Source: Flammeovirga kamogawensis
GTDB lineage: Bacteria; Bacteroidota; Bacteroidia; Cytophagales; Flammeovirgaceae
DNA length: 64,000 nucleotides
Assembly (NCBI RefSeq): GCF_018736065.1
Contig: NZ_CP076128.1
Location: 2,870,001 to 2,934,000, forward strand
Direction of reading: 5' to 3'
Shown here: in pieces, positions 19,299 through 61,752 of the stretch
How positions within the stretch are numbered: position 1 is the first letter of the stretch
Layout: every line of letters begins with the position of its first letter
Translations under genes and position numbers: made by a program
The notes under the pieces: model-generated
Seen by the model: the letters and a program-made list of their open reading frames with translations, nothing else
What the model was told of the DNA's origin: nothing
The model's database searches: none

Positions 19299-19473
19299 CA
19301 AATCTCTATTTCAATCTGTATAGAATAGTCAATAATACCTCTTTATTAACTTTTGTTTCAATTAATTGAAATTTCACATTAACAAGATATAACTATTCTA
19401 AGAAGATGTACATTTTGTTATTGAAAATTTCATGATTTATAATTAAACCGTTATACTTGAATAGGTAAAGATA

Positions 19474-19564
19474 ATAGGTTAGTCACCTATTATATGGCAT
19501 GATACACCAGTAACATTAACCAGTTGTGGAAAGACATTCGATAAATATTGAATGTCTTTTTTTT
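19474..19564 (+). ncRNA. Candidate small RNA, copy 1 (62-nt repeated core plus terminator)
   Basis: The core at 19474-19535 matches 47197-47258 at 60 of 62 positions although both sit in unrelated intergenic DNA. The core opens with a hairpin, ATAGGT-TAGTC-ACCTAT (19474-19490). A second hairpin, RTAT-GGCATG-ATAC, follows. It ends in a rho-independent terminator: stem AAAGACATTC/GAATGTCTTT (19530-19559) and a T run to 19564. The terminator stem of copy 2 has different bases but also pairs, as expected for RNA. GGTTAG near the start could alternatively pair with TTAACC further on. No ORF. hemC starts about 100 bases downstream, but copy 2 has no downstream plus-strand gene, so a free transcript is likelier than a riboswitch. 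Confidence 0.7.
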
Positions 19565-19638
19565 ATGCTAAAAGACTAAAAGATTAAAATCTCTTCTTTC
19601 TATGTAGTTACAATTTTCATTTTGAATCAACTAGTGAT

Positions 19639-19646
19639 TATCTTCG
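19639..19646 (+). promoter_or_regulatory. Possible -7 box of hemC
   Basis: TATCTTCG, near the TAnnTTTG consensus, 20 bases upstream of the hemC ATG. A TTTG lies upstream but at 14-nt spacing, shorter than usual. Confidence 0.4.
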
Positions 19647-19665
19647 CGTAATTATTAATATAGAT

Positions 19666-47043: not shown

Positions 47044-47062
47044 TTTTCCATATTATGGAAAA
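47044..47062. promoter_or_regulatory. Perfect palindrome upstream of tpiA, possible operator
   Basis: TTTTCCATA, one base, TATGGAAAA: two 9-bp arms, no T run after it, so it is not a terminator. It sits 61 bases upstream of the tpiA -33 box and 135 before small-RNA copy 2. Confidence 0.4.
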
Positions 47063-47196
47063 GTGGTTTCAAAATGAAACAAATATAAAATTGGCACACA
47101 ATAAAAAACCAACCAAAATACTTATTATCAAATAGTTAACTAATATTAATTAACTATTGGCACAGTTAATGAATATTAGTTATTGGGTAAAGAATC

Positions 47197-47286
47197 ATAG
47201 GTTAGTCACCTATTGTATGGCATGATACACCAGTAACATTAACCAGCTGTGGAAAGACACTTGAAAATTTTCAAGTGTTTTTTTTT
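47197..47286 (+). ncRNA. Candidate small RNA, copy 2
   Basis: The core at 47197-47258 differs from copy 1 at two positions only: A to G near 47215 and T to C near 47247. The first change turns an A-C mismatch into a G-C pair in the TGTAT-GGCATG-ATACA hairpin. The terminator stem ACACTTGAAAA/TTTTCAAGTGT (47257-47278) is unrelated in sequence to that of copy 1 but pairs fully and is followed by nine T. GGTAAAGA is shared just upstream of both cores. The nearest genes, tpiA and the barrel protein, are both on the minus strand, so the plus-strand transcript would be independent of them. The rest of the 46910-47539 gap holds only the tpiA promoter and palindrome. Confidence 0.72.
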
Positions 47287-56922: not shown

Positions 56923-58059
56923 TTATTGATGTTTAAAGTGAGGTTTTAAAACTTCATACCACTCATCAGCTGTGCCAACATCAAATAATTCAAAAAAGGT
57001 TACATTATTTACTTTCCAACTTGAGAGATCTTGATTAAAAGTAGTAGCTCCATTAAACATTGCATACATATCTGTAACATTTGAAACATCCCAACATGAA
57101 ATGTCTTGATTGAAAGACTCTGCATTTCTAAACATATTTCGCATTATTTCCACATTCGATAAATCCCAATTCGAAAGGTCTTGATTAAATGACTCTGCAC
57201 CAAGAAACATAGCTTGCATACTTGAAACTTTTAATAATTTCCATGAAGAAAGGTCTTGATTAAAAAATGTTGCATTGTAAAACATCCCTACTACTTCTTT
57301 AACATTTTCTACATTCCATTGTGATATATCTTGATTAAAAGAACTTGCTCCTCGAAACATTTGACTCATCACTATCACGTTTGATACATCCCATTGCGAT
57401 ATATCTTGATTAAAAGAACTTGCCCCATCAAACATTCCTCTCATATGAGTTACATTACTTACATTCCATTGCGATATATCTTGATTAAAAGAGCTTGCCC
57501 CAAAAAACATATAACTAGATGCATTTAAATTTTTGACATTCCATCGCGATATATCCTGATTAAAGGAAATTGCTCCTCTAAACATTAAACTCATCTGAGT
57601 TACATTACTCACATCCCAATCCGATATATCCTGATTAAATATGCTCTGGTCTTTAAATAATCCATACATATTTCTTACTTCGCTAACATTCCATTTTGAT
57701 ATATCTTGATTAAAATTTTCAATTCCTTCAAACATATACAACATACTTGTGACATTTGAAACATCCCACTTCTCTATTGAGCCATTAATAACTTTAACTT
57801 CTGAAAAAAGTTTTGTCATATCCGTAACACATGAGGTTATTACATAAGTAACATCATTTCCTTCTTTTATATATTTCTTAAGTGATTTATTATCTACAAT
57901 CAAATATCTTTCATTATCAATAGTAACATAATCACCAACTTCATAACGAAAATCATTACAATCTACTTTTATTGATTGTCCTTTAAGCTCTAAACAAAAA
58001 TGAAATAATAAAATACTGAATAGTATAACTTCTCTTAATGGAAACTTTATTGTTGTCAT
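56923..58059 (-). CDS. BspA-like repeat surface protein (DUF285)
   Basis: 378 residues. N-terminal signal (EVILFSILLFHFCLELKGQ), a 90-residue lead domain, then ten FNQD-starting repeats of 25 residues (for example FNQDISQWNVSNVTHMRGMF) from about 117 to the end. This is the BspA/Mycoplasma-lipoprotein type leucine-rich repeat (PF03382), forming an elongated adhesion solenoid. The DNA repeats every 75 bases. No T9SS C-terminal sorting domain is seen, so how it reaches the surface is unclear. Confidence 0.87.
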   Translation of the reverse strand: MTTIKFPLREVILFSILLFHFCLELKGQSIKVDCNDFRYEVGDYVTIDNERYLIVDNKSLKKYIKEGNDVTYVITSCVTDMTKLFSEVKVINGSIEKWDVSNVTSMLYMFEGIENFNQDISKWNVSEVRNMYGLFKDQSIFNQDISDWDVSNVTQMSLMFRGAISFNQDISRWNVKNLNASSYMFFGASSFNQDISQWNVSNVTHMRGMFDGASSFNQDISQWDVSNVIVMSQMFRGASSFNQDISQWNVENVKEVVGMFYNATFFNQDLSSWKLLKVSSMQAMFLGAESFNQDLSNWDLSNVEIMRNMFRNAESFNQDISCWDVSNVTDMYAMFNGATTFNQDLSSWKVNNVTFFELFDVGTADEWYEVLKPHFKHQ

Positions 58060-60239: not shown

Positions 60240-60593
60240 ATGTTTAAAGTAGAAGATAAAATATACCCTTGTTGTACTAGCCTTACAATGAAATATATTG
60301 GTGGAAAATGGAAAACCGTCATCCTAATTCATTTAAAAAATAATACACTTAGATATAATGAAATTAAGAAAACAATTCCGACTATAAGCGAAAGAACCTT
60401 AAGTCTGCAGTTAAAACAATTAGAAGAAGATGGCCTTATCAACAGAAAAGTTATTGCCACAGATAAGCCTCCTCTTAAAGTGGAGTATAGTATGACCGAT
60501 TTTGGAAAAACCTTAATTCCTCTTCTAGATATGATTTCTTCTTGGGGAGAAGAAGCTATTAAATGGGATGATAAAATTGAAGTTGTAAAATAA
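60240..60593 (+). CDS. HxlR-family transcriptional regulator
   Basis: 117 residues, winged helix. Cys13 and Cys14 (YPCCTSLTMKYIGGKWKTVIL) lie where redox- or electrophile-sensing Cys of this family (YodB, HypR) are found. Then LRYNEIKKTIPTISERTLSLQLKQLEEDGLINRKV is the recognition helix and wing, followed by VEYSMTDFGKTLIPLLDMISSWGEEAI. Divergent from the nitroreductase gene it most likely represses. Its 3' 154 bases from 60429 are duplicated exactly at 61585. Confidence 0.92.
   Translation: MFKVEDKIYPCCTSLTMKYIGGKWKTVILIHLKNNTLRYNEIKKTIPTISERTLSLQLKQLEEDGLINRKVIATDKPPLKVEYSMTDFGKTLIPLLDMISSWGEEAIKWDDKIEVVK
60429..60582 (+). repeat. 154-bp exact direct repeat, copy 1 (inside hxlR)
   Basis: Identical base for base to 61585-61738, same orientation, offset 1156. 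Differs immediately on both sides. Confidence 0.95.
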
Positions 60594-61584: not shown

Positions 61585-61752
61585 GATGGCCTTATCAACA
61601 GAAAAGTTATTGCCACAGATAAGCCTCCTCTTAAAGTGGAGTATAGTATGACCGATTTTGGAAAAACCTTAATTCCTCTTCTAGATATGATTTCTTCTTG
61701 GGGAGAAGAAGCTATTAAATGGGATGATAAAATTGAAGAAATTAAGGTATAA
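61585..61752 (+). pseudogene. 5'-truncated hxlR copy
   Basis: Contains the exact 154-bp repeat (61585-61738) in frame, then its own ending: the frame continues EEIKV and stops at 61750, whereas the intact gene ends in EVVK. The N-terminal 60 codons of hxlR are absent and there is no start codon of its own. The first half of the 322-base gap 61435-61756 shows nothing else. Confidence 0.85.

Follow-up and report, generated by a model that had tools for sequence, protein, structure and literature searches.

A candidate family of three small-RNA genes at conserved positions across the genus Flammeovirga

Two near-identical elements, A and B, lie in a 64,000-nt stretch of the Flammeovirga kamogawensis genome (hereafter the window; contig NZ_CP076128.1, positions 2,870,001 to 2,934,000), the host genome being 6.97 Mb in size. 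They are best read as copies of an undescribed small-RNA (sRNA) gene family that has a third relative, C, outside the window. The best reading of the three is as paralogous genes inherited vertically in Flammeovirga and, judged from their sequences, A, B and C are very probably independently transcribed sRNA genes. A trans-acting sRNA was the best explanation because each element combines a promoter-like box with a conserved body and its terminator at a fixed intergenic place, and no same-strand gene lies behind B or C.

A preliminary description of the window, made from its letters alone, had reported that 60 of 62 bases are identical between 19474-19535 and 47197-47258 and that the flanks differ. 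Direct comparison reproduced the identity, which fell away immediately outside the core (9/20 positions on the left and 12/20 on the right). One other pair of 62-mers in the window was more alike than A and B, and it belonged to a perfect repeat unrelated to the element. The repeated unit is real, but it had been drawn too short: the conserved unit is ~100 nt long and begins ~10 nt earlier, at a GGTAAAG leader starting at 19464 in copy A and at about 47186 in copy B. Also absent from that inventory were the 5' leader, the promoters and paralogue C. From 5' to 3' the element consists of the leader GGTAAAGA, hairpin 1, the body and a terminator (Table 1). A Rho-independent terminator, predicted as a hairpin followed by a T-run and carrying paired changes, was found in each of A, B and C; in A and B the stems differ in sequence yet pair, as first noted.

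Table 1. Features of copies A and B and their upstream regions, in window coordinates.
Feature	Position	Strand	Basis
Copy A -7-type promoter box TATACTTG (TAnnNTTG), sigma-A-like	19452..19459	+	motif conservation
Copy A sRNA gene, predicted transcript ~100 nt	19464..19564	+	conservation, synteny, RNA fold
Copy A invariant 5' leader GGTAAAG	19464..19470	+	common to A, B and C in 9/9 genomes
Copy A hairpin 1 (ATAATAGGT-TAGTC-ACCTATTAT)	19471..19493	+	paired changes
Copy A invariant middle, candidate target-pairing or protein-binding site	19494..19527	+	identity 1.00 within class
Copy A Rho-independent-type terminator	19528..19564	+	paired changes; T-run reaching 19564
Palindrome TTTTCCATATTATGGAAAA between tpiA and copy B	47044..47062		exact window match; conservation by eye
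Second palindrome GTTTCAAAATGAAAC between tpiA and copy B	47066..47080		conservation by eye
Copy B sigma-54-like promoter element TGGCACAGTTAATG	47158..47171	+	motif conservation
Copy B sRNA gene, predicted sibling of A	about 47185..47286	+	conservation, synteny, RNA fold
Copy B hairpin 1 (ATAGGT-TAGTC-ACCTAT)	47197..47213	+	covariation; A/B comparison
Copy B middle, two bases off A	47214..47250	+	A/B comparison
Copy B terminator, own stem sequence	47251..47286	+	predicted hairpin; A/B comparison

The genomes of nine Flammeovirga were compared by blastn, and each contained two copies (9/9). Class A was located between a divergent arsR/spoU-type gene pair and hemC, and class B head-to-head with tpiA, in 9/9 genomes; the presence of two copies throughout, at conserved positions, is more than chance would give. 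Near-identical RNA genes at separate conserved loci, the pattern of sibling sRNAs, were found for A and B in all nine. An exact 21-base core occurred in 10 stretches in named records, all Flammeovirga, with two stretches each in F. aprica, F. pacifica and strains SJP92, EKP202 and OC4. Searching the nine genomes with the 5'-module pattern gave 28 matches, against 0 for the reversed control; 27 of these were A, B and C, and the remaining one (G003:C1:4310461) looks like chance. In an order sample of 194 genomes, the A, B and C 5'-modules were present in 8/8 genus members, and the 31-nt core, searched at up to 3 mismatches in a class sample of 395 genomes, was present in only 1, that of the window.

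Paralogue C (G000:C2:1379736-1379832, minus strand) has only the 5' leader and hairpin in common with A and B, and its body is unrelated to theirs. It was present at one conserved place in 9/9 genus genomes, flanked by a GNAT-type acetyltransferase gene, so called on the basis of its translation, and by a DprA-type gene. Of the 26 pairs predicted for hairpin 2 and the terminator of class C, 8 were changed on both sides. C is best read as a sister of A and B with a swapped body. The end of an rRNA operon (23S and 5S; L064, 1-1327) lies upstream of the gene adjoining C, on the second contig.

RNA folding gave a z-score of -4.72 for copy A, with 0/200 shuffles equally stable, and of -2.40 for copy B, with 3/200. 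Covariation was scored on an alignment (A3) of 15 of the 18 A and B copies, from which L006, L008 and L018 were omitted as near-duplicates. For hairpin 1 and the terminator combined, 99.4% of cells were paired and 7 of 22 pairs (29 cells) were changed on both sides, while control structures slid along the alignment paired only 46-59% and the covariation score of the main structure was reached by 0/500 shuffles. Hairpin 1 alone was paired in 100% of cells, with 2 of its 6 consensus pairs changed on both sides, including the variants GGC-CTTGC-GCC in G003 and GAC-GTAAT-GTC in G008. The terminator was paired in 99.2% of cells, and 5 of its 16 consensus pairs were changed on both sides, mostly following the A/B split and hence reflecting few independent events. 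Further pair types showed no excess over shuffles (364/500 reached the observed value). A middle hairpin predicted by RNAalifold lies where the sequence does not vary, and hence carries no covariation signal either way. Further copies with paired changes, which the preliminary description had set as a test of its proposal, thus turned up across the Flammeovirga genomes.

The same description had suggested that GGTTAG could pair with TTAACC instead of forming hairpin 1. Both window copies allow this pairing, and the minimum-energy fold of copy B includes it. In 2/9 species (G003 and G008), however, the hairpin variants of class A break it, having no matching change on the 3' side: hairpin 1 is retained by paired changes and TTAACC is unchanged. 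The idea of alternative structures was therefore not upheld as a property of the family; given its minimum-energy fold, copy B may still contain a structural switch.

The 42-nt middle was identical within A (9/9) and within B (9/9), with a pairwise identity of 1.00, and the A and B bodies differed from each other at two places. The A and B flanks had mean identities of 0.63-0.74, with random 100-mers at 0.59. The statement that structure and not sequence is kept consequently holds for the terminator but fails for the middle, where the sequence itself is conserved. Purifying selection on the body fits these sequences better than gene conversion, because class-specific bases persist beside the common A/B body.

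Each class carried a different promoter-like motif at a fixed distance from GGTAAAG: TAnnNTTG at -12/-13 in class A, TAnnTTGY at -12/-13 in class C, and TGGCAY-N6-TG at -28/-29 in class B, each in 9/9 loci, although, given the relatedness of the nine sequences within a class, these counts do not amount to nine independent trials. The frequencies of the motifs per position of the window were 0.00213, 0.00064 and 0.00002 for TAnnNTTG, TAnnTTGY and TGGCAYN6TG, respectively. The motifs were mutually exclusive, none being found in the 60 nt that precede the loci of another class (9 loci each). Their spacing would place the transcription start at the GGTAAAG leader in each class. The sigma-54 consensus has a GG element at -24 and a GC element at -12, including the C at -12. 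In the copy B element the -24 half resembles sigma-54, and the TG of the -12 half was kept in 9/9 loci, whereas the C that follows was not kept, which leaves this half weak. The genome contains rpoN. In Flavobacterium psychrophilum, according to the accessible parts of that study, TAnnTTTG is the sigma-A box, TAnnTTGY marks another promoter class, and a sigma-54 (-24/-12) class was also described (PMC9723704).

Two palindromes lie between tpiA and copy B. A search with TTTTCCATATTATGGAAAA, allowing up to 2 mismatches, gave 2 matches in the window versus 1.03 expected, and 25/100 shuffles reached 2. By eye, TTTCCA-N5-TGGAA was present in 9/9 class B loci, and GTTTCANNNTGAAAC in 8/9, with G004 deviating. 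Both palindromes (47044-47080) are possible regulator or activator sites, serving either copy B or tpiA.

No convincing family member was found outside Flammeovirga in the samples searched with the covariance model and with the core and 5'-module patterns. The covariance model gave weak matches in 6/9 genomes of the family outside the genus (best E 8.6e-4, in G017). Seven of the outside-genus matches (L033-L038 and L048, a set that excludes two G017 matches, C9:69509 and C3:907564) were inspected and rejected as terminator-type hairpins without leader or body, one of them adjoining tRNA genes. Inside the genus, two of the weak extra matches were inspected and look like terminators. With the 5'-module pattern, 7/186 non-genus genomes of the order sample had one match each, versus 4 matches for the reversed control; the seven look unrelated, none having the GGTTAGTC hairpin. 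The Rfam search of the whole window at the gathering threshold returned 0 matches. A lax scan of 19400-19640, around copy A, gave seven chance-level matches (best E 0.32), none of them FopS, and a lax scan of L002 and L064 gave rRNA and five sub-threshold matches, none on the element. No named RNA family had been recognised in the preliminary description, which proposed an Rfam check, and indeed no family reached its gathering score on the element. Its reading of a small-RNA family is supported by the structure, the copies' own terminators and the lack of an Rfam match, though not in the matter of alternative structures. Among the Flammeovirga papers listed for sRNA or RNA-seq, with subscription journals mostly outside the scope, none evidently dealt with these RNAs; they include a transcriptome study of F. 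pacifica WPAGA1 (PMC6581685).

In 9/9 genomes hemC directly follows copy A on its strand, which places A where a cis-acting leader, attenuator or riboswitch of that gene would be expected. This explanation is very unlikely. Next after copy B in the window comes a convergent gene, and after C the convergent acetyltransferase gene, so that neither has a same-strand gene directly downstream and the cis position is absent for both, in agreement with the earlier judgement that A is not a hemC attenuator. No alternative antiterminator pairing was conserved. Moreover, a TATCTTCG box (window 19600-19665), seen by eye in 9/9 loci, stands between the A terminator and hemC; its resemblance to the TAnnTTTG promoter consensus suggests a separate promoter for hemC. 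The occurrence of near-identical copies in different intergenic regions would also fit a mobile or DNA-level element, such as a transposon end, a recombination site or a dispersed repeat. We consider this highly improbable: the copies occupy the same places in 9/9 genomes at constant copy number, and no match was found in plasmids or phages (blastn) or in viral contigs (exact 21-mer). Least credible of all is a chance or low-complexity artefact. An AT-rich genome, and the weak model matches that terminator-type hairpins yield by themselves, would speak for it, but chance was rejected on the two copies in every genus genome, the restriction of the 31-nt core to a single genome of the class sample and the absence of 5'-module matches in the reversed control.

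How the RNAs might act is less firmly indicated. In the model that we favour on balance, three paralogous genes encode sRNAs of ~100 nt, and the A/B body pairs with mRNAs in trans. Each RNA would start at GGTAAAG, form hairpin 1, carry a body and end at its own terminator. A and B, with the same body, would be sibling sRNAs, and C would join the same 5' module to a different body; the differing promoter-like motifs would allow the same or a related RNA to be made under different signals. The invariant A/B middle would pair with one or more mRNAs in trans, altering their translation or decay. Taken by itself, the proposal of trans action of A and B through base-pairing is somewhat more probable than its opposite, the pairing with mRNA being inferred from the kind of gene, since target searches and duplex energies gave no convincing target. 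Three 19-nt body segments were searched against the nine genomes with up to 3 mismatches, a design blind to short seeds and G-U pairs. Segment 1 had 24 non-self matches versus 25 in the reversed control, the middle segment 8 versus 3, with no site recurring across genomes, and segment 3 40 versus 101. One site that did recur in nine genomes was rejected as antisense to the secA coding sequence (checked in G000 and G008, and deduced for the other seven from identical letters). When duplex energies were computed against 50 of the 64 listed ORF starts of the window, the values were ordinary, 35, 12, 56 and 78 of 100 shuffled queries doing equally well.

RNAs such as CsrB and 6S act by titrating a protein. 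A comparable role for A, B and C, in which the RNAs bind or titrate a protein or the 5' module serves as a protein handle in place of mRNA pairing, is the less probable explanation, yet one of some weight. It accords with the base-for-base conservation of the A/B body within each class, with GGTAAAGA and the hairpin being the sole part common to A, B and C, and with long complementary sites that were not in excess for two of the three segments and did not recur for the third. Hfq was likewise not found in the one genome searched, the window's own (0/1), by a search whose control was positive in 5/14 known genomes; to our knowledge, Bacteroidota generally dispense with the Hfq system of E. coli. 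On the other side, no CsrB-type repeated binding motif was seen by eye, and the base-pairing searches would overlook short seeds and G-U pairs. Trans-acting pairing by the A/B body stays the preferred reading. As a tentative proposal, which we hold to be doubtful, GGUAAAGA and the short hairpin could be a transferable sRNA "cap" placed on different bodies and recognised by an RNA-binding protein or RNase, with three promoter inputs in a genome lacking Hfq.

GlmY/GlmZ and Qrr of gamma-proteobacteria are sibling sRNAs under different control, and some gamma-proteobacterial sibling sRNAs use sigma-54. The Flammeovirga RNAs resemble these, as well as the sibling sRNAs of Neisseria (PMC5362039) and the duplicated CsrB of Vibrio (PMC6262261), so far as the accessible parts of those papers describe them, in that near-identical RNAs from separate genes could join several signals to one response. 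No sequence relation to these RNAs was seen, the single Rfam match to Qrr (E 0.86) being below the gathering score and off the element. Within the phylum, a close parallel in the accessible text of PMC11697453 is FopS/GibS, paralogous sRNAs of Bacteroides thetaiotaomicron that also have a common conserved stretch and a Rho-independent terminator. FopS as presented there numbers 14 members, mostly with a single type of promoter, and its 5' seed is single-stranded, whereas the Flammeovirga family has 3 members, a 5' hairpin module and three promoter-like classes. The FopS structure is stated, in the same text, to be deposited in Rfam (PMC11697453), and membership of FopS was rejected, no Rfam family having reached its gathering score in the window and none of the lax matches being FopS. 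Rfp18 of F. psychrophilum, compared by its description in the accessible parts of PMC9723704, is likewise a genus-wide structured sRNA of the Bacteroidota, and sigma-A, sigma-54 and TAnnTTGY promoters occur in that genome, resembling the promoter-like motifs here; the Flammeovirga core pattern, in the samples searched, turned up in no genus but its own. The family is a new one of a known kind, that of sibling sRNAs, in a phylum where this kind is represented by FopS. Descriptions of sRNAs in Bacteroidota are few except for species from the gut or associated with fish. Flammeovirga is a genus of marine bacteria that degrade polysaccharides, and a family of three genes with fixed locations throughout it offers a system for studying sRNA action without Hfq, and also lets one ask whether the common 5' module of A, B and C is a protein handle.

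Other features were observed in the window. A perfect 154-nt direct repeat is present at 60429-60582 and 61585-61738; its first copy overlaps the end of an HxlR-type regulator gene (60240-60593), and its second is flanked by minus-strand genes on both sides, one being of the AraC type. The minus-strand gene at 56923-58059 contains a tandem array of ~75-nt units and encodes a 378-aa protein with four DUF285 stretches.
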